From a virus: 54,233 bases of DNA. Location: the IMG/VR virus record IMGVR_UViG_3300048927_000792, positions 1 to 54,233 of that record. One strand, 5' to 3'. The notes beneath the pieces were generated by a model, which worked only from the letters and a program-made list of their open reading frames with translations, did not search any database and had not been told where the DNA came from. Both the position numbers and the translations under genes were made by a program. Shown in pieces: positions 26,089-36,337 of the stretch; position 1 is the first letter of the stretch, and each line of letters starts with the position of its first letter.

Positions 26089-26565
26089 TTACCCCGAAAC
26101 AGAGAGAGAGGGAACGGGGCGGCGGTAGCGAACCGCACCGACCGAGCCGGATGCGCCATCCTCTTCGAACTGCGCGCCGGGGATGGTGACGACGGTTGCG
26201 GACTGGGCGGCGCCGGTCCACGTCTTGTTGGCGGTGTTCCAGCGCGCCTGCGCGCCCTTGGTGACGTTCGCGCCAAGCTGCACGCCGATCACACCGACCT
26301 CGCAGACGCCGACATTGTCGTACTGGGCGTAGGCGTCGCCGGGGCGGGGAAGGGTCAGCGCGGCCTCGGTGATACCGAGAACATTGCGGCCGGTGGTGGC
26401 GTCAAGCTCGGCGCAGGTATGCGCGCCAGCGCCCGGCATGACCGGCACGCCGAACCCGAGGGCAGCTTCGCCTTCCTTGGTGCGGGTGAAGGTGTTCCAC
26501 TCTTCCGAGTTGACACGGCGTCCCAGCGCGAAGGCGGCGAGCGAGTTCCTGAACGTGAGGGCCAT
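26089..26565 (-). CDS. structural cement/decoration protein (Gp24-like)
   Basis: 158 residues: ALGFGVPVMPGAGAHTCAELDATTGRNVLGITEAAL, YAQYDNVGVCEVGVIGVQLGANVTKG and KTWTGAAQ are typical of Gp24-like structural cement proteins. Starts at the stop of the protease-scaffold gene and precedes the capsid gene by 6 bp. Stabilises the expanded head. Confidence 0.8.
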   Translation of the reverse strand: MALTFRNSLAAFALGRRVNSEEWNTFTRTKEGEAALGFGVPVMPGAGAHTCAELDATTGRNVLGITEAALTLPRPGDAYAQYDNVGVCEVGVIGVQLGANVTKGAQARWNTANKTWTGAAQSATVVTIPGAQFEEDGASGSVGAVRYRRPVPSLSVSG

Positions 26566-27698
26566 TATGCATTCCTCCAGGCGTTGAGATCGGTATTCGC
26601 CTTGGCCAGGGCCGTGTCGGCGAGGGTGGCGGCGTCCTGAAGGACAGGCGAGCCGAGGGGCTGCACGCCGGTCGTTTCGACCTTGGCGTCCTTGGTCAGG
26701 ACCGCGAACGAGGCAGCGATCTGGTCGGCGGTCCAGCCCTTGGCGGCGTCGCCCATCTGCTTCGAGACGGTGGCAGCCATGATCGCGGCTTCATCCATCT
26801 CGTCGGAGACGGTGACGCCCAGAGCCTTGGCCTTGCCAGCGGCGACGAGAAGCGCCTTACCGGCGTCGCGCAGCTGGGCCGGGGTCGGCTTCGCGTCCTT
26901 CACCTGCTGTTCGAGCGTGGTGATCTTCGCGTCCTTGGTCTGGCCCTCGGCGGTGAGGGTGGCGACCTGGGTTTCGAGGCCTGCGACCTTGCTGTTTGCA
27001 GCGTCACGGGCGGTCATGAGGGTGGTGATGGTCGTAGCGGCGATGTCCGCGTTCGACACGTCGACGGAAAGCCCGTCGATGAGAACGATCTTCGGCACAG
27101 GGCTCTCCTGAGTGAGTGAATCGAGAATGTTGGAGGGAAGGGCGTCGCAGACGGCGAACCCGTCCTTGATGGCGCATTCGGAACCGGCGCGGCCGCGATC
27201 GACCAGTGCAACGTGGTTTCCGAAGATGGACTTCTGGCGGGCCTGACACTTGGTGCCGTCGGGTGCCGTGAAGTCGCCGAATTCGAGGTCGCTGCTGTAG
27301 CCGTTGCTCAGCTCGCGTTTGCCGCCGTCCACCTTGGCGATGGCCTCGGCGTCGGTCAGCAGCAGGTCGAAGGCGAGGTAATCTCCGTCGCGCATCGCAC
27401 CCATGATCGTGCCGCGCGCGTGATCCCGCCAGTTTTCGGTCGTGACGGGGGCGGCGGGGTGGTCGTCGGTGACGGGCTTGCCGATGAAGCTGCGGACGGA
27501 CTTCTCGTCGAAGACGGTGCCGTCGTCGCGGAGCACGTTGACCAGGGCGGTATCGCGAAGGCCGTGCTTGTTCTCGGGATCTACCTCGGAGCCGCCGTAC
27601 TGATAGACGCCGGTGCGGGCCGCGCGAGCGCGAACGGCCATGGCGCCGCCTTCAATGCGGCGGGGGGCGTCAAGGGTGAGGCTGTCCCGAAATTGCAT
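26565..27698 (-). CDS. prohead protease-scaffold fusion (DUF2213)
   Basis: 377 residues from the ATG at 27698. Residues 1-180 are a DUF2213 protease-like domain (GKPVTDDHPAAPV, RELSNGYSSDLEF, RQKSIFGNHVALVDRGRAGSEC). Residues 200-290 are a scaffold-like coiled coil (LETQVATLTAEGQTKDAKITTLEQQV); the rest is Ala-rich. One chain acting as protease and scaffold is common in this type of head module. No Shine-Dalgarno; late promoter copy 8 is placed for a leaderless mRNA. Confidence 0.85.
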   Translation of the reverse strand: MQFRDSLTLDAPRRIEGGAMAVRARAARTGVYQYGGSEVDPENKHGLRDTALVNVLRDDGTVFDEKSVRSFIGKPVTDDHPAAPVTTENWRDHARGTIMGAMRDGDYLAFDLLLTDAEAIAKVDGGKRELSNGYSSDLEFGDFTAPDGTKCQARQKSIFGNHVALVDRGRAGSECAIKDGFAVCDALPSNILDSLTQESPVPKIVLIDGLSVDVSNADIAATTITTLMTARDAANSKVAGLETQVATLTAEGQTKDAKITTLEQQVKDAKPTPAQLRDAGKALLVAAGKAKALGVTVSDEMDEAAIMAATVSKQMGDAAKGWTADQIAASFAVLTKDAKVETTGVQPLGSPVLQDAATLADTALAKANTDLNAWRNA

Positions 27699-27705
27699 GC
27701 CTCGC

Positions 27706-27742
27706 ACGGTATTCGCGCGCGAGGCATGGCTTTACCGCCGTT
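27706..27742 (-). promoter_or_regulatory. late promoter copy 8 (capsid unit)
   Basis: Minus strand: AACGGCGGTAAA (27742-27731), 19 bp, TACCGT (27711-27706). The -10 ends 8 nt before the ATG at 27698. Confidence 0.78.
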
Positions 27743-28353: not shown

Positions 28354-28848
28354 ATGGCTTTTCTTCCATCGACTATCGCGAAGATCGCGGACATCAAAGG
28401 CGTCCGCAATGTCGCATTTGTGCGCCTACTCAAGCACAGCAATCTTTCCATTCTGCTTACCGGCGGGAGCGAACCTCACATCGTTTTTCTCGGTGGAGAT
28501 CGAAAAGGAAAGGGTTTCCCTTTGGCAAATGCCGATTCCGAAGATGCTCTAATTATTGAGGGTATCGAGTTCGAGTGCGATTGGGATACCATGTATAAAC
28601 CGGCCCTAGTTGACCAACCGGTCGGAGCTTTCAAAATCGCGAGAGATTTCTACGGCCTCGCCGTCGAAAGTGTTGATGGTCATGGCTTCGCCGTGATCAA
28701 AGACATCGATTTGGGGCACACTGATGTTCTCCGGCGAGACCCACTCGCAGGCACTACCGGTTTCAAGACCTGGCGCATCTCGAAGGCGGTTGGGGATCGG
28801 AAAATCGATCTGTTTACGTTTGAGGCTACCAAGACAGCTCACTACTAA
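28354..28848 (+). CDS. plus-strand cargo gene, unknown
   Basis: 164 residues from the ATG at 28354, AGGGGTG upstream. Compact mixed alpha/beta protein (AFLPSTIAKIADIKGVRNVAFVRLLKHSNLS, IEFECDWDTMYKPALVD). GC is visibly lower than in the head genes around it. Stands divergent from the 28229 gene and convergent with the head morphogenesis gene (4-nt overlap). No family recognised; a lysogen-expressed cargo gene is the likely role. Confidence 0.7.
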   Translation: MAFLPSTIAKIADIKGVRNVAFVRLLKHSNLSILLTGGSEPHIVFLGGDRKGKGFPLANADSEDALIIEGIEFECDWDTMYKPALVDQPVGAFKIARDFYGLAVESVDGHGFAVIKDIDLGHTDVLRRDPLAGTTGFKTWRISKAVGDRKIDLFTFEATKTAHY

Positions 28849-29648
28849 AAAGTGATCACCGCTTGCGAGCGGCACCCGCAATAAGGCAGCCGGCCCGGCA
28901 AGTCCTGCGGCGCCGTCTCGTCGGTGTATTCGTTCCCATCCCGCGCCTGGTGATTTAGGCGCGGGTGGGCCTTCCGGCTATGCCGCCAGATCCACGTATC
29001 AATTCCCGCCTCGCGCCGCCGCTCGTCCGCGAGCGCGCTGGTCAGCTTGTTGAGCTGGTCCGAGGCGATCCGGGTCGCACGCTTTCGGCTCATGCCTACG
29101 CTGTCCCGGATGGTGCTGGCCACCTCGCGCGCCGGGGTGCGGTTGCGCAGCCCATCGAACACGGCGTTGCTTATCTTTTGGCGCGTCACGTCGGACACGT
29201 CCTTGACTAGGGCAACGTTCCACTCGATCGAGGTCTCAAGGCTGGCGCGCACGTCGCCGGCGCCGATCATCGTCTCCAAATCCACACCGGTGGCCGACAG
29301 GACCGCGCCGCGCCACTTGCCGCGGTACCATTGCTCCGTCCGAAGCGCCCAGTCGCGCACTTCTGGCGTCAGCAGCAGCACAAGCCGGTTGATCTGCTCG
29401 GCAGCGCCGTCGATCTCGGCGCGCACGTCGGCCGGGGCGTCCGTCGTCATCTCGGAGACGGTAGCCGAGTAGGCTGCGATGATGCGTTCTGCACCGGCTG
29501 CCCACCCTTGAACCACAGGGTTATACACAGCCCGGTAGAGGTTCGTCGCAAGCGTTCCCGGAGGATCGATGTCGCGCAGGACAATGGAGCGCTTGCGCAT
29601 GCCCGGCTTGGCCCGGCGCGTCATGGCCGCGAGGTCGTAGCGGGGCAC
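28845..29648 (-). CDS. SPP1 gp7/Mu F-like head morphogenesis protein
   Basis: 267 residues from GTG 29648, directly after the upstream stop; ATG 29624 is an alternative. The C-terminal half has the Mu F/SPP1 gp7 pattern: VASTIRDSVGMSRKRATRIASDQLNKLTSALADERRREAGIDTWIWRHSRKAHPRLNHQARDG and a closing LPYCGCRSQ. Minor head protein made with the portal; may act in DNA ejection. Confidence 0.88.
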   Translation of the reverse strand: MPRYDLAAMTRRAKPGMRKRSIVLRDIDPPGTLATNLYRAVYNPVVQGWAAGAERIIAAYSATVSEMTTDAPADVRAEIDGAAEQINRLVLLLTPEVRDWALRTEQWYRGKWRGAVLSATGVDLETMIGAGDVRASLETSIEWNVALVKDVSDVTRQKISNAVFDGLRNRTPAREVASTIRDSVGMSRKRATRIASDQLNKLTSALADERRREAGIDTWIWRHSRKAHPRLNHQARDGNEYTDETAPQDLPGRLPYCGCRSQAVITF

Positions 29649-29649
29649 G

Positions 29650-29931
29650 TCAGGCCTCGCGCGTAGGCTCTGCGTCAGCCTGCGAGCCACGCCACATGGT
29701 TTTCCAGCCAAGCGCCAAGAGGCGGATCGATCGAACGCTCAGGTCCGACCGGATGCTGTCGCGGGCGGCAATGACTGCTGCCTCAGTCGCATTCCAGCAG
29801 ACTGCGAGCGGAAAAGCGAGAAGCCGCCAGTTGAAGTGCCAGAGGATAAGCAGCGGAAAGACGATCACCATGGCCACGCGGCGGAGTGCGGCGTTGCGTA
29901 TACGGGCGATTGGAAGGCGGGGGCCGCTCAT
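29650..29931 (-). CDS. small membrane protein after portal
   Basis: 93 residues from the ATG at 29931 (ATGA overlap with the portal stop). Basic N-terminus and two hydrophobic stretches around VAMVIVFPLLILWHFNWRLLAFPLAVCWNA, then a basic region with an acidic end. Role unknown. Confidence 0.65.
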   Translation of the reverse strand: MSGPRLPIARIRNAALRRVAMVIVFPLLILWHFNWRLLAFPLAVCWNATEAAVIAARDSIRSDLSVRSIRLLALGWKTMWRGSQADAEPTREA

Positions 29932-31880
29932 GCCTCGGTGACCTTCCGCTTCCAATCGAGGTCCAGCGGCTCGAACAGTTCCTCGCCGAATTCGAGCGCG
30001 CCCGCGTAAGGCTTGATGGCCGTCAGATCGACGCCATCGGGCACCTCATATGACAGGGTGATATGTGGGTGATAGGAATCGAAGTCGTGGCTTCCGCCCG
30101 CGTCCACCATGGAGCGGTGGCGGCTCTCCAGTTCCCACGAGGCGAACAGCAGCACGACGGCATTCTCGCCGAAGCGCTCGATCGCGCGCGGACCGCCGGG
30201 CTTCACGCGGATTCGGCCCTGTTCGTCGCCTGCCCAGCTCTCGCCCATTTTCATGGGGTCAACAGCGGTCTTCGAATACAGCACCGTGACGTGGAGGTCG
30301 TCGGCGGCCAGCGTGGACTTGAAGCCGTTATCCTTTGCCCAGGCGATCAGCGCGGCGCCGTTCAGGAGCTTGCGCTGGACGTAGAGCGGGCGGGGGGCGG
30401 CATCGGCAAAGAACCCGGCCGCGGCATCGTTCGCAGCCCGGCGAGGCGGCACGCTTCCATTCGCGCCGCCTGCGCCTTCGAGATTAGGATCACCTCCTTC
30501 GGCCGCTATGGCAGACGGGTCCGTACCGTCGTCGTCCGGGTTCAACCCGAACCTCTCGTTTTCGGGGATTTCTGCGAGGGCGCCTTCGAGGCCGGGTATC
30601 CACCCCCGCTCGGTCATGAGGTTCTGCAGGCCCCTCGCGAATGCCTCGTCTGGGATCGCGCCGGTCGCTTGAAGCTTCGCCATGGCGTCCATGGTGACGT
30701 TGAAGGTGTCGGCCTCTTCCTTCTCGCTGGGCGTGTCGAGCGGCGCCCAGTCGGCCCAGACTTCGGCATCATCGGTCGCGGCCACCCCGGCGGAAGCCAT
30801 CAGAAGCGGGTCGAGCTGGTCCATGCACGGCTGTAGCTCAAGCGTCTGCTTGGCCTTGACCATGCGGTTCCAGTTCGCGGTGTCGCTGTCGCCGGTGGAG
30901 TTCTGGCCGTCGGGCGACTTGCTTAGAAGGCGAGTGGCAGGAATGTCGGAAACTGCGGCGAGGAAGGCTCCGAACGCCATCATCACGTCGGGAATGCCAG
31001 CCCAGTTAACCTGGCGGTGGTCGATCGTCTCGCCCGCGCCCGGGGTGCCATCCCCTGCATCGCGGAGCATGGCGTTGTACATGCTCTCCCCAAGGATCAT
31101 AGCGGACAGGCGGCGGCGCAGTGCAGCCTCGCCGTCGGCGTCCGAAACGAGGTCCATCAGGCCCGGAATGCCGATGATGACGTTCCGCACCTTGGTGATC
31201 AGTGAGGCGAATGCACCTTGGGAGGTGTCGACGTTCTGGACTGCATCGAGCACGCGCTGGACGCGGGCACGGCCCCAGAAGCGATCATCGAGCGACACAG
31301 GGAGAATCGGCGGGACCGGATCGCCTCGGAAGCAGATTACGCGGGAAGGGTGGATGTTCGTCTGGCTGCTGCCCATGCGCCAATAGGTGGGCTTGCCGTA
31401 ATTCGGATCGGCTATCTCGTCGACCAAATCGACGCCGGTGATCTGCCAGCGTGTCACGACGTTGATCGCAACGATACCGCCCTTGGTGATCTGCTCGGGC
31501 TTCAGCTCCGAAGAGTGATCGCCCGCGGTGACGATGACCAGGGCGCCACCACCGAGGCCGCGATAGGTCTCCGCCATGCGGACCTTCTCGCGCAGCCCAA
31601 GGCGGCGCTCCTCTGCCTCTAGCGCCTTGATCTGCTTCGCATCGGCCTGCCAGTTGCGCCACTCCCGCACCATGTCGAGCGCAGGAATGTCGATGACCTT
31701 CGCCATCATGCCGGAGCCGTCGTAGGCGGCGGCGATCTGGAACTGATCAAGGTTGCGTGGCAGGAACCGGTTGTAGCTGCGCGGGTCAGCATGCGTGCCA
31801 AAGCCCGAGACCGCGTTGGTCAGGCTATCGACGGTGTATCCGTCCTTGAAGCGAATGGATCGGATGCGGCCGCCGGACAT
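29928..31880 (-). CDS. portal protein fused to Acb1-like 2H phosphoesterase
   Basis: 650 residues from the ATG at 31880. Residues 1-460 are a DUF1073-type portal (YNRFLPRNLDQFQIAAAYDGSGMM, HPSRVICFRGDPVP, FGAFLAAVSDIPATRLLSKSPDGQNSTGDSD). After a Gly/Asp-rich linker, residues 498-650 form a 2H phosphoesterase domain with both HxT motifs, HVT (530-532) and HIT (606-608). This architecture is annotated for the anti-CBASS Acb1 family, whose T4 member cleaves cyclic oligonucleotide signals. Thus the portal may carry a defence-blocking enzyme into virions. No Shine-Dalgarno; late promoter copy 9 upstream. Confidence 0.85.
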   Translation of the reverse strand: MSGGRIRSIRFKDGYTVDSLTNAVSGFGTHADPRSYNRFLPRNLDQFQIAAAYDGSGMMAKVIDIPALDMVREWRNWQADAKQIKALEAEERRLGLREKVRMAETYRGLGGGALVIVTAGDHSSELKPEQITKGGIVAINVVTRWQITGVDLVDEIADPNYGKPTYWRMGSSQTNIHPSRVICFRGDPVPPILPVSLDDRFWGRARVQRVLDAVQNVDTSQGAFASLITKVRNVIIGIPGLMDLVSDADGEAALRRRLSAMILGESMYNAMLRDAGDGTPGAGETIDHRQVNWAGIPDVMMAFGAFLAAVSDIPATRLLSKSPDGQNSTGDSDTANWNRMVKAKQTLELQPCMDQLDPLLMASAGVAATDDAEVWADWAPLDTPSEKEEADTFNVTMDAMAKLQATGAIPDEAFARGLQNLMTERGWIPGLEGALAEIPENERFGLNPDDDGTDPSAIAAEGGDPNLEGAGGANGSVPPRRAANDAAAGFFADAAPRPLYVQRKLLNGAALIAWAKDNGFKSTLAADDLHVTVLYSKTAVDPMKMGESWAGDEQGRIRVKPGGPRAIERFGENAVVLLFASWELESRHRSMVDAGGSHDFDSYHPHITLSYEVPDGVDLTAIKPYAGALEFGEELFEPLDLDWKRKVTEA

Positions 31881-31887
31881 GCGGGTA

Positions 31888-31924
31888 ATGGTAGGTATGT
31901 GTGCCAATCCCGATTACCGCTATC
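31888..31924 (-). promoter_or_regulatory. late promoter copy 9 (portal unit)
   Basis: Minus strand: GATAGCGGTAAT (31924-31913), 19 bp, TACCAT (31893-31888). The -10 ends 8 nt before the ATG at 31880. First late promoter of the structural region. Confidence 0.78.
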
Positions 31925-31959
31925 AGGGGCACATATTTCCACATCGAATCGGGGGAACG

Positions 31960-32658
31960 ATGAGCAATCACCAGACGGCGGTTGAGGTATTTGCAAGTTT
32001 GAGCTTTGAACAAGAGTTGCCTTATCCAGTCGACAACTCTCATTATTGCGCGCACGCGGGCTGTGGCACATTCGCCCTCCACCATTGGGGGATGGTTAGG
32101 AGTTTGGCTTACTGGCCATCGCATTCCCGCTCATCTGGAAGAACTAACATCGTCATCGCGCGGTGCAGTGCGTGCAGTGCAGAAACGATATTTGCGGATG
32201 GCAAGCTTGTGTATCCTGCGACGATTTCTGCTCCGGCTCCGGCAGCCGATTTGCCAGACACGTTGAAGATTGATTTCGAGGAGGCGAGGCTTATTTGCAA
32301 CCAATCGCCGCGAGGGGCGGCGGCACTACTGCGTTTGGTTGTGCAAAAACTTTGTCCTATTCTTGGATCGGAACAAAAGGACATCAATAAAGCGATCGGA
32401 GATCTGGTCGAAAGAGGGGTAATTAATGTGGCTTTACAGCAAGCTCTCGATTCAGTTCGTGTTATCGGAAACGAGGCCGTTCATCCAGGTGAGCTTGATC
32501 TGAAGGACGATCCTGCAACTGTCCTTTCGCTGTTTAAGCTTATCAACTTCATTGTCCAAAAGGCAATTACCGAGCCGAAGGAGATCGGCGCGATCTACCA
32601 GGCGCTTCCTGCGAGCAAGCTGGCCGGGATCGAGATTCGGGACAAAGCCAAGGCCTAA
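31960..32658 (+). CDS. DUF4145 protein with zinc-binding N-terminus, cargo gene
   Basis: 232 residues from the ATG at 31960, GGGGG upstream. N-terminal Cys/His set (HYCAHAGCG, later CSACSAETIF) suggests a zinc site. Residues 105-205 match DUF4145 (ARLICNQSPRGAAALLRLVVQKLC, DINKAIGDLVERGVINVALQQALDSVRVIGNEAVHPGELDL). DUF4145 domains often accompany restriction and other defence proteins. The gene is on the opposite strand between terminase and portal, lower in GC, and convergent with terL (4-nt overlap): lysogen-expressed cargo, possibly defence. Confidence 0.8.
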   Translation: MSNHQTAVEVFASLSFEQELPYPVDNSHYCAHAGCGTFALHHWGMVRSLAYWPSHSRSSGRTNIVIARCSACSAETIFADGKLVYPATISAPAPAADLPDTLKIDFEEARLICNQSPRGAAALLRLVVQKLCPILGSEQKDINKAIGDLVERGVINVALQQALDSVRVIGNEAVHPGELDLKDDPATVLSLFKLINFIVQKAITEPKEIGAIYQALPASKLAGIEIRDKAKA

Positions 32659-34082
32659 GCATTCCTGATATCGTACCGCGTCCCAAGCGCGATGGCCCCG
32701 AACGCCCGAGAGGTGCTATCCGGTGTGTCATCGTGCTTGGCGCTGGGGAAGTTCTCGTTGGCTGAGAACCACGCCTCATTCCACGGGCCGCGCAGCACAT
32801 CGACGTTTCCGGCTTCAGCCTGAGCGGAGAACGGCCCGAAGCGCGTGACCTTGTCGCCCGATTCCGGTGACGATCGCACGTTGTACCCCGCCAGCTTGAG
32901 CTTGAGGCTCTGGACCTGAGCCTTGCCCGCCTGACCGGGGTCCTGCGGCAGGTAGATCAGGCACCCCTTGCCGTCCTGCGACGCGGTGTTGACTATCAGG
33001 CTCTCGACGCCATTGGGCGACAGGCAATCAGCATGGCTATCGACCACGATGAATCGGCCGTCCGGCATGCGACCGATCTTCGTCGATGCGGTGGCGTCCG
33101 GGTCGGGATTGTCGGCGGTGCGCGGCGTGGCGGCAAGGTCATAGCCGCGCGCGAACACTGTTCCGGCAGGAATCGCATCTACCACCCGGCACCAGGCCCG
33201 CTGGAAGTAGAGCCCGGCGGCGGGCCTGATCTTCCAGTTGCCGCCTAGCAGGCGCTCGCGCTCCACCAGCGGCAGGGCCAGCAGCGAGGCCATGTACCCC
33301 GGATCGGCGGCCATCAGCGCCTTGTTGTCGGTCAGCTTGGCCGGGATAAACGTCAGCGACTTCGGCGGGATCGGTACGCTCTCGCCCGCGTCGTTGAGCA
33401 TGGTGTATTGCTCAAGCTCGGACGGATCATCAGCCCAGCGCAGGTCTTCGCCCACGCGAACGAACCAGCGCAGCTTGCCGGAGCGATCCGGAATCGGCAG
33501 GCCCGTGTCTTGGTCGATCCACCAGGCGATGAGGTCCGCGACCCAGCTATCCGCATCGGGGTTGCAGGTCGCACGGATGTAAGGCCGGACACCGCACATG
33601 GAGCGGTTGCGGCTGACCATGTACCAGAACTGGGTCGGCGTGAAATGCGTCAGCTCGTCGAAGCAGATCAGCGGGATCTGCGAGCCCTGCCAATTGAAGC
33701 GGGTCTTATCGTGCTCCAGGTGGGCGAAGCTGACGCTGGCACCGGTGGGAAATGTCCACGAGAGCGTGTGCTCCTTCGGCTCGGCGCGCAGCAGGGGATA
33801 GAGCGTGGTGCTCTCGTCCCATAGGCCGCCCTCGTTGCGGATTTGGACCGTGGAGCGCCGGAAGAACACCGCACCGAAGCCGGGATTGCTGACATGGCGC
33901 AGCGGCTCCATGAGCAGACCCCAGGTCTTCCCGCCGCCCGCGCCGCCGCCGTATATGACGATATCGGCGGGCGAGGACAGGAAAGCGGTCTGGGGGCCGG
34001 GCTGGGGCTTGATCGTCTCGGCGGTGATCTCCGGCCCGCCGTTGTGACCCATGCCGGAAGTGATGGAGGTGTGGGCGTTCAC
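32655..34082 (-). CDS. terL: terminase large subunit
   Basis: 475 residues. ATPase domain with Walker A GGGAGGGKT (45-53), Walker B LICFDE (138-143) and the motif III region ATCNPD (171-176). The nuclease domain follows, with ARGYDLAATP (Asp315) and HADCLSPNG. Packages DNA through the portal. It has no late-type promoter and belongs by overlap and spacing to the early leftward operon. Confidence 0.93.
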   Translation of the reverse strand: MNAHTSITSGMGHNGGPEITAETIKPQPGPQTAFLSSPADIVIYGGGAGGGKTWGLLMEPLRHVSNPGFGAVFFRRSTVQIRNEGGLWDESTTLYPLLRAEPKEHTLSWTFPTGASVSFAHLEHDKTRFNWQGSQIPLICFDELTHFTPTQFWYMVSRNRSMCGVRPYIRATCNPDADSWVADLIAWWIDQDTGLPIPDRSGKLRWFVRVGEDLRWADDPSELEQYTMLNDAGESVPIPPKSLTFIPAKLTDNKALMAADPGYMASLLALPLVERERLLGGNWKIRPAAGLYFQRAWCRVVDAIPAGTVFARGYDLAATPRTADNPDPDATASTKIGRMPDGRFIVVDSHADCLSPNGVESLIVNTASQDGKGCLIYLPQDPGQAGKAQVQSLKLKLAGYNVRSSPESGDKVTRFGPFSAQAEAGNVDVLRGPWNEAWFSANENFPSAKHDDTPDSTSRAFGAIALGTRYDIRNA

Positions 34083-34878: not shown

Positions 34879-35102
34879 TTCAGAGCCCCTCTATGGATGC
34901 AGAACAAGCCGGAGTGAGGGGATATGCTGGGCCAGTGCGAGGCGGGCGTTTTACACCAACCGGCCTCGCCAAGGCGTCCCTTGCGTGCTGGCGAAATGTC
35001 CTCTGGGATGAAGCATGGGCCATAAGCAACGGTCGCACCCTGATAGTCGATGACGTTGCCGAACTGGTCCAGCGACCCCGGCTTTATGCGAGCTAGCCTC
35101 AT
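34875..35102 (-). CDS. hypothetical small phage protein
   Basis: 75 residues from the ATG at 35102 (ATGA overlap). ARIKPGSLDQFGNVIDYQGATVAYGPCFIPEDISPARKGRLGEAGWC, beta-rich. Not recognised. Confidence 0.65.
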   Translation of the reverse strand: MRLARIKPGSLDQFGNVIDYQGATVAYGPCFIPEDISPARKGRLGEAGWCKTPASHWPSISPHSGLFCIHRGALK

Positions 35103-36337
35103 TCCCCCTCTCCCTCCTTCAAAGGCGCGGCGGTAATGGCGGCGCGGATCATTGCCCCTAGAGGAGTGAGAATGCCGGAGACGCAATCCGCTATCGCTTC
35201 GGACAGGTCTTCCGCGACCTCGGGATGGTCCTCATACTTGGTGGTAAGAACCCATTCGCCGCCGATGAAAACCGCGCCAGCAATCGCCTTTTTCTGCACT
35301 TCGGTCAGATCGGCAAAGAGCCGCATCGCCTCCACCAACCTTTCGGGATTGGTCGGGGTGGCGGACCCGGCCACGTCGGCGGCAGGGGGAATAACCTCGT
35401 CCATGCTGGCGATCATGGCGCGGTGCAGCGCCTCGGACTGTTCCGGCGTGACTTCCACCGCCTTTCCAGCGACAGGGCGAAGGCCCTTGTCTCCGAAGCA
35501 CCGCTCGCAGTCGCAGAAGCCGCAGACGGCGTTTCCGTCCGGGTTCTTGACGCCGCACATGCACTCCCATTCAGCGGGCTTGATGCTCACCCCGAGGCCG
35601 TCTTCGGTGAATGTCGCCACCACCTTCGCAACTTCGGCGGGCTTGGGGTTCATGGCTGCTATCGCGCGCCTGGCGTCTTCCCGATACATCTGCTTGGTGA
35701 ATTCGGAAGCGTCCTCCCAGCGCTTGCCCTGATACATCGCCTGCGCCACCCTATCGACATCATCACCGATCGCCGGTTCTTCTGGCGCGGCCTGAATGTC
35801 GGCCATGGCAAAAGCCCGAACCGCGTCCTTCTCCATGTCGAAGGCTTCGAGTAGCCATTGCGGCGCTGGATGCCATTCGGTCGCGCCGTGGTAGACACGG
35901 ATCGGCCTGACAGTGCGCTCGGAAACTTCGCCACGGTAGTTCTTGTACCGGAAGCAGAGGAAACCCTCCCCGCTCACTTCCTCACGAGCAGGTTCGGCGC
36001 TCTTGGCTTGCATTGCGGCGATGGACTCCCGAACCGTTTCTTTCACGAATGATGGCGACTTCGCGATCTCCGCAGGATCGAGGTTGTCGATCTGGAACAG
36101 CAGGTCGAGAACTTCCGCCTCCACCTCATCGGCGGCCGGGGCGGGGTGGCGGGTGTTCCAGGCGGTGATGGATTCGGCCTCAGACGCAGAGGTGATCTTG
36201 AGATCGCAATCTCGGCATCCGGCAGTCCCGAAGGTTATCCCAGCATGCACGGTCCCGTGCGACAGGTTGTTGCCGTGACACAGCGGACACGGCATCAGCT
36301 TCTCAGTCATGGTCTTGGTCTCCGGGGAGGGGGTCAT
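35099..36337 (-). CDS. mosaic protein of several small phage modules
   Basis: 412 residues. Residues 11-64 form a Lar-like zinc ribbon (MPCPLCHGNNL, GCRDCDLK, AWNTRH). Residues 120-190 carry a WYL-like block (FLCFRYKNYRGEVSERTVRPIRVYHGATEWHPAPQWLLEAFDME). A helical module follows (RVAQAMYQGKRWEDAS). Residues 252-282 hold a second Cys cluster (ECMCGVKNPDGNAVCGFCDCERC), then a helical C-terminus. These blocks normally occur as separate small phage proteins. Lar modulates restriction in Rac prophage; a similar role here is only a guess. Confidence 0.75.
   Translation of the reverse strand: MTPSPETKTMTEKLMPCPLCHGNNLSHGTVHAGITFGTAGCRDCDLKITSASEAESITAWNTRHPAPAADEVEAEVLDLLFQIDNLDPAEIAKSPSFVKETVRESIAAMQAKSAEPAREEVSGEGFLCFRYKNYRGEVSERTVRPIRVYHGATEWHPAPQWLLEAFDMEKDAVRAFAMADIQAAPEEPAIGDDVDRVAQAMYQGKRWEDASEFTKQMYREDARRAIAAMNPKPAEVAKVVATFTEDGLGVSIKPAEWECMCGVKNPDGNAVCGFCDCERCFGDKGLRPVAGKAVEVTPEQSEALHRAMIASMDEVIPPAADVAGSATPTNPERLVEAMRLFADLTEVQKKAIAGAVFIGGEWVLTTKYEDHPEVAEDLSEAIADCVSGILTPLGAMIRAAITAAPLKEGEGE

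Follow-up and report, generated by a model that had tools for sequence, protein, structure and literature searches.

A phage portal protein with an Acb1-like 2H phosphoesterase domain on its tail, a probable exchangeable counter-defence cassette

We have analyzed a stretch of viral DNA of 54,233 nucleotides (IMG/VR virus record IMGVR_UViG_3300048927_000792, hereafter the window) that codes for a portal protein fused to a C-terminal domain resembling the phage enzyme Acb1. We consider it probable that this portal bears, on a disordered C-terminal tail, an intact Acb1-type 2H phosphoesterase that acts as an exchangeable counter-defence cassette, silencing signaling of the type used by the cyclic oligonucleotide-based antiphage signaling system (CBASS). 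The fusion gene spans 29928..31907 (-) and codes for 659 residues from a TTG start, or 650 from an in-frame ATG at 31880. An earlier note, made from the sequence alone, had placed it at 29928-31880; these coordinates stand for the ATG start, the strand (minus) was left unstated, and the TTG start extends the gene to 31907. Residue numbers given here are those of the 659-residue frame unless indicated.

The reading of this gene as a portal with an Acb1-like C-terminal domain is borne out by two Pfam matches. The portal body (residues 57-410, 30678..31739 (-)) matches PF06381, Phage_portal_3 or DUF1073, with E=9e-95. The Acb1 domain (residues 507-654, 29946..30389 (-)) matches PF23474 with E=8.6e-39. 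Between them lies a portal tail rich in Gly and Asp that ends in RRAAND (residues 456-501, 30405..30542 (-)), followed by a short D-A-x-P-R stretch (residues 502-506, 30390..30404 (-)). The linker has the composition that the earlier note gave it and is predicted to be disordered at about 428-491 (650-residue numbering) in the full-length model. The gene belongs to the Phage_portal_3/DUF1073 family by its Pfam score above cut-off, by its portal fold (the top structural match of the body model was the Pam3 portal, 8hds, Z 24.2) and by its location between the genes of the terminase large subunit (TerL) and MuF. The window gene aligns with 8hds over the full length (E=5e-98). PHROG 146, "portal protein", covers both the portal and the Acb1 parts, and therefore the fusion is already built into a public family.

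Two HxT triplets by themselves are weak evidence; judged by their scores, both domain matches lie far above chance. PF23474 gave 133 bits versus a cut-off of 27 and covered profile positions 2-143 of 144. The LigT/RNA-ligase family PF13563 reached 13.9 bits, under its cut-off of 27, which leaves the domain outside that family, and PF02834 (LigT) was unreported for the window protein in the Pfam scan. A model of the domain was built from 57 portal-borne sequences (mean predicted local distance difference test score of 90). Its top matches were FBB1 Acb1 with and without 3'3'-cyclic GMP-AMP (cGAMP), with Z 16.8 and 15.8 and about 2 Å over 131-134 residues (for 7t27, Z 16.8, 1.9 Å, 134 residues), followed by the Acb1 of Burkholderia phage BCSR5 (Z 14.3) and then by LigT and CPDase enzymes (Z 10.6). 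Compared with the 2H enzymes, the nearest fold is that of FBB1 Acb1, ahead of LigT enzymes, as expected from the earlier note. The catalytic and ligand residues of T4 Acb1 have been described (Hobbs et al., PMC9117128), and we aligned the window domain to the T4 enzyme and to further solo Acb1 proteins. The tetrad H44, T46, H113 and T115 of T4 is retained as H539, T541, H615 and T617, within the motifs H-V-T (residues 539-541, 30285..30293 (-)) and H-I-T (residues 615-617, 30057..30065 (-)), exactly where the earlier note had seen them in the ATG numbering (530-532 and 606-608). The T4 ligand contacts Y12, F107, E141 (the adenine contact) and W147 are identical in the window domain, and 4 of the 5 nucleobase contacts are kept. 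The ratio of nonsynonymous to synonymous change (dN/dS) in the Acb1 domain was about 0.07-0.14 (pairs with dS <0.8), indicating purifying selection. The conclusion that the domain is Acb1-like in fold and active site, and not a generic 2H domain, is supported.

The exchange of the domain is visible in pairs of closely related portals. L178 carries Acb1, and L176 and L177 lack it. Portal DNA is 97.6% identical between L176 and L178 as far as the codons of ...ARRAVNDA, after which there are either 481 bp with Acb1 (L178) or 241 bp of unrelated sequence coding for a short tail (L176/L177), and the identity is back at 98.5-98.9% from the ATG of the next gene. Two Rhizobium phages, TM3_3_3 (with Acb1) and N28_2 (without), present the same exchange at 86.6% identity, the gene after the portal being replaced as well. 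In the case of the window, the portals L158 and L159, both without Acb1, terminate in the same tail as the window portal, and L159 represents the empty site: the common tail ...GLNPDDDGTDPSAIAAEGGDPNLEGAGGANGSVPPRRAAND is followed by about 25 bp until the homology with the MuF gene begins. In place of these, the window has 778 bp with Acb1 and a small open reading frame (ORF). The latter (29650..29955 (-), 101 residues, hydrophobic) lies between portal and MuF, inside the segment missing from L159, and a PHROG comparison gave no match for it. The gene of the MuF minor head protein (28845..29711 (-); PF04233 E=1.8e-10; phrog_324, head morphogenesis) is the next conserved one and makes the right flank of the swap site.

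The borders of the cassette can be delimited as well. RRAAND-like motifs were found in 21/38 portals without Acb1 and 17/35 with it, an equal frequency indicating that the motif, at the end of the docking tail, belongs to the portal. The D-A-x-P-R/K stretch is conserved above 90% at positions -7, -6, -4 and -3 before Y12, with position -8 and those farther upstream variable, and marks the fixed 5' edge of the cassette. Its D-A is near-invariant in portal-borne Acb1 and missing from solo Acb1; the stretch may serve as a site of processing or as a structural cap, or may be or simply the cassette edge. Acb1 behaves here as a head-fused effector, that is, an effector on a head protein that varies independently of the head protein.

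Relatives with the same two-domain arrangement are common. Searching viral contigs with an alignment of the fusion gave at least 584 matching places. The scan patterns contain the HVT motif, and the catalytic conservation in loci selected this way is therefore biased, so a portal-selected set was used instead. It came from a scan with the portal body only that yielded 80 portals, the best-scoring relatives and thus a sample rather than a census. Fused Acb1 was present in 37, absent in 38, and 5 were cut by the contig end (37/75 untruncated). Among the 37 fused domains H44 was found in 36, and T46 and Y12 in all; the 35 reaching motif 2 all had H113 and either T or S at 115. On a quick tree of the portal bodies (with SH-aLRT, the Shimodaira-Hasegawa approximate likelihood ratio test, as the only support), the presence of Acb1 needed 29 changes, at least 23 of them forced by well-supported branches. 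The scatter was close to that of shuffled labels (79/500 shuffles were as low), and even portals with an identical body differed in the presence of Acb1. The portal-borne domains formed a single group versus the few solo forms included. Scattered presence together with a single Acb1 group suggests that a portal-adapted Acb1 cassette circulates among portals. The closest relatives of the window have portal bodies 34-55% identical and Acb1 domains 76-97% identical. In two of them (L002 and L003) the DNA identity rises above 90% at around codon 450 and beyond. There dS drops from 1.05-1.27 to 0.21-0.44, a recombination signature.

Other modules are found on the same tail. PBECR3-like (RNase) C-terminal modules were detected alone in the portals L154:3953-5920, L162:3172-5157 and L200:3265-5268, with E 8e-4, 2e-4 and 0.06, all short of the curated cut-off. 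In L173:3935-6397 a PBECR3-like module (E 0.01, below cut-off) comes after Acb1, and the 980-residue portal L227:3956-6895 has Acb1 and then an ADP-ribosyltransferase exoenzyme domain (PF03496, E 1e-24). These alternative tail modules fit the picture of "polyvalent proteins", effectors on head proteins that are carried into the host. Two further portals without Acb1 (L018:2830-5484 and L017:2032-4407) have a long extension at the C terminus. One extension has a DGYILDGHHHW stretch, ParB-like by eye and with no Pfam match, and the other is very rich in Lys, Gly and Ala.

Where the domain lies in the virion has to be judged from related phages. In the E217 portal the C-terminal barrel points into the head and the built residues are only 97-528 of 765 (PMC10329688), and in the Pa193 portal residues 529-765 have no density (PMC11042391). 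The sequence of the Pam3 portal (8hds), 621 residues long, includes an Acb1-like domain at 464-618; 442 of the 621 are modelled, according to the structure library from which we took the extent of the model, and the portal match ends near residue 403. The domain model compared alone with this library had no 8hds match listed, which is consistent with an unmodelled domain and is no proof by itself. By homology, a flexible tail would hold the Acb1 domain inside the head, unless the domain has been removed. The suggestion of the earlier note that a portal-borne copy could act where DNA enters appears weaker from this. With its place inside the finished head, the domain would need to act ahead of assembly, or else to be set free and ejected.

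How the cassette would work goes beyond the data on sequence, fold, conservation and exchange, and is inferred. From its family and residues, the Acb1 domain would hydrolyse cyclic di- and trinucleotides containing adenine by the metal-independent 2H mechanism, and this cleavage would remove CBASS-type immune signals as T4 Acb1 does. Newly made portals, which are late head proteins, would bring the domain into the cytoplasm of the producing cell before assembly, when head proteins are abundant, and after assembly it would stay inside the head beside the DNA. The head maturation protease might also free it there for ejection into the next host.

Several observations weigh against this proposal. 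The base-stacking W74 of T4 has no clear counterpart: the alignment puts an E there, in a loop with many gaps. It is likewise missing from the solo relatives RcXuper, DSS3P8 and ZHS (from Rhodobacter, Ruegeria and Edwardsiella phages). Some copies look degenerate (L015 lost H113 and T46, L157 has H44Y), and those of psageB2, TM3, Susan and Erebus end before the W147 lid. Genes for CD-NTases were found in 5/18 prophage hosts versus 17/150 in one host family, a comparison between different family mixes in which no clear enrichment can be seen. In the open literature, which we covered incompletely, we found no experimental paper on the activity of portal-borne Acb1. Delivery of the domain from the virion is putative.

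Such a delivery is nevertheless the alternative that survives best, and we regard it as a real possibility, somewhat short of an even chance. The head maturation protease may free the Acb1 domain, which would become a cargo of the head, be ejected with the DNA into the next host and protect the next infection from its first minutes. This is compatible with the explanation that we prefer, the timing being what differs. The candidate for freeing the domain is a DUF2213 protein (26565..27707 (-); phrog_530, "head maturation protease", E=3.9e-69), a putative protease whose gene comes after those of the portal and MuF. The tail is disordered and by homology inside the head (PMC10329688), and the Pam3 domain is unmodelled in the virion structure, although flexibility would also explain the absent density. 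The RNase- and ADP-ribosyltransferase-like effectors on the same tail are typical of packaged polyvalent proteins (PMC5512222, PMC9503650). D-A-x-P is near-invariant at the junction despite the D-A being missing from solo Acb1, but it may be just the cassette edge or a structural cap, and the cleavage is putative. A broader version, in which the tail ending in R-R-A-x-N-D would be a general swap site of DUF1073-portal phages for interchangeable, head-internal effectors (Acb1, PBECR-like RNase, ADP-ribosyltransferase) and the Acb1 clipped by the head maturation protease would be ejected with the genome and disarm CBASS before phage protein synthesis, is offered tentatively and seems rather unlikely in its full extent.

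A different target would be other immune or host cyclic nucleotides instead of CBASS signals, such as the cyclic triadenylate (cA3) of type III CRISPR, decoys of the Panoptes type or host cyclic dinucleotides. Base recognition by Acb1 is loose and many rings containing A are cut (PMC9117128), W74 and its loop differ from those of T4, and host CD-NTase genes are only modestly frequent. Yet the A-contact E141 and the lid are retained, and all tested Acb1 enzymes cleaved 3'3'-cGAMP and cAAA (PMC9117128), so that we hold this alternative to be unlikely. More improbable is a 2H enzyme acting on RNA, whose substrates would be 2',3'-cyclic phosphate ends or 2'-5' linkages, trimmed in the way of LigT, CPDase or Usb1, for example in the repair of RNA cut by toxins. 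PHROG 755 labels such domains "RNA ligase", LigT enzymes come right after Acb1 among the fold matches (Z 10.6), and an RNase role is among the options listed by Iyer et al. (2017, PMC5512222). In Ruegeria and Rhodobacter phages, moreover, the solo Acb1 genes (L023, L024) have the gene of a poly(A) polymerase or of a tRNA nucleotidyltransferase a few genes away. However, sequence and fold are clearly nearer to Acb1, the Acb1 contacts Y12, F107 and E141 and the lid W147 are present, and no RNA ligase was found among the scanned window genes (part of the ORFs). A structural or DNA-handling function of the domain within the portal, the 2H fold being retained for binding alone, is very unlikely. 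In its favor are the fusion to an essential head protein, the place beside the packaged DNA by homology (PMC10329688) and the loss of catalytic residues in a few copies (L015, L157). Against it, about half of the comparable portals do without the domain, including some with identical bodies, the exchange leaves the portal body untouched, and the catalytic residues are almost invariant.

The head genes of the window are on the minus strand in the order TerL (32655..34082 (-); PF03237, PF17289; upstream of the portal), portal-Acb1, the 101-residue ORF, MuF, DUF2213, a cement protein of the Pam3/E217 type and the major capsid protein. The window ends on the right with a phage integrase, which suggests a temperate phage, and beside the integrase there is a DNA methylase (PF01555, 51708-52976 (+)). 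A DUF4145 gene (PF13643, E 8e-15; 31795-32658 (+)) is located on the opposite strand between TerL and portal. The ORF at 35099-36337 (-) gave a weak Pfam WYL match (E 3.5e-5); a second match, to Lar, a protein of restriction alleviation (E 7e-4), is below cut-off.

Some candidates were rejected along the way. A natural split of portal and Acb1 into separate genes in Synechococcus phage Yong-M3-232 (L020:1380-1720) may be an assembly artefact and was left unused; apart from about 127 bp duplicated in tandem where portal and Acb1 join, it is identical to JY40 in the stretch compared. An internal start freeing Acb1 is unsupported. In-frame ATGs occur in 46/117 linkers and starts preceded by a Shine-Dalgarno-like sequence in 21/117; the window linker offers TTG and GTG only, with no good site. 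Fusions of Acb1 to a prohead protease, as the annotations of DSS3P8 and ZHS would have it, turned out to be wrongly named solo Acb1 ORFs (L023:3992-4444 of Roseobacter phage DSS3P8, about 150 residues; L022:2116-2715 of Edwardsiella phage vB_EpM_ZHS, about 199 residues). The solo gene of ZHS sits between TerL and portal, and in L023 and L024 a thioredoxin is adjoining or near.

There is prior evidence of similar proteins. With the known Acb1 enzymes (T4 gp57B and FBB1; PF23474; PDB 7t26 and 7t27) the window domain shares the fold, the HxT/HxT tetrad, Y12, F107, E141 and the C-terminal lid residue W147. T4 Acb1 is a solo protein of 152 residues, whereas in the window it is the C-terminal domain of a portal, without a clear W74. 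The portal-borne branch, unlike T4 and FBB1 Acb1, has a conserved G-G-x-R motif besides the D-A-x-P-R leader. The same architecture, at about 33-52% identity end-to-end, is found in the Pam3 portal (8hds), Rhizobium phages RHEph04, TM26 and TM3_3_3, Synechococcus phages JY39 and JY40 and the group of Pseudomonas phage phiPSA1. The records that we opened for these portals say only portal, head, hypothetical protein or DUF1073. Iyer et al. (2017, PMC5512222) described portal and MuF proteins that bear 2H or PBECR domains ("polyvalent proteins") and proposed for them a role against nucleotide-activated defence, and a 2022 survey (PMC9503650) restated it; Acb1 is not named in the passages concerned. 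MuF polymorphic toxins (PMC5576092) likewise have variable C-terminal modules on the head protein of the portal-MuF gene pair, but the window has the portal itself as carrier, with a counter-defence enzyme rather than a toxin as its main module. The portal-2H architecture, the proposal of a role against nucleotide signaling (2017, 2022) and the Pfam name of the domain were thus already known. New here are the test for Acb1 versus generic 2H at the level of residues and fold, the near-isogenic exchange and the docking site.

Annotation that stops at "portal protein" overlooks a second domain, and surveys of counter-defence may therefore undercount Acb1. The natural pairs with and without the cassette (L178 versus L176/L177, TM3_3_3 versus N28_2) make its role directly testable. 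If active, a portal-borne Acb1 would mean that one of the most conserved virion machines also serves, across a widespread phage group, as a platform for immune evasion.
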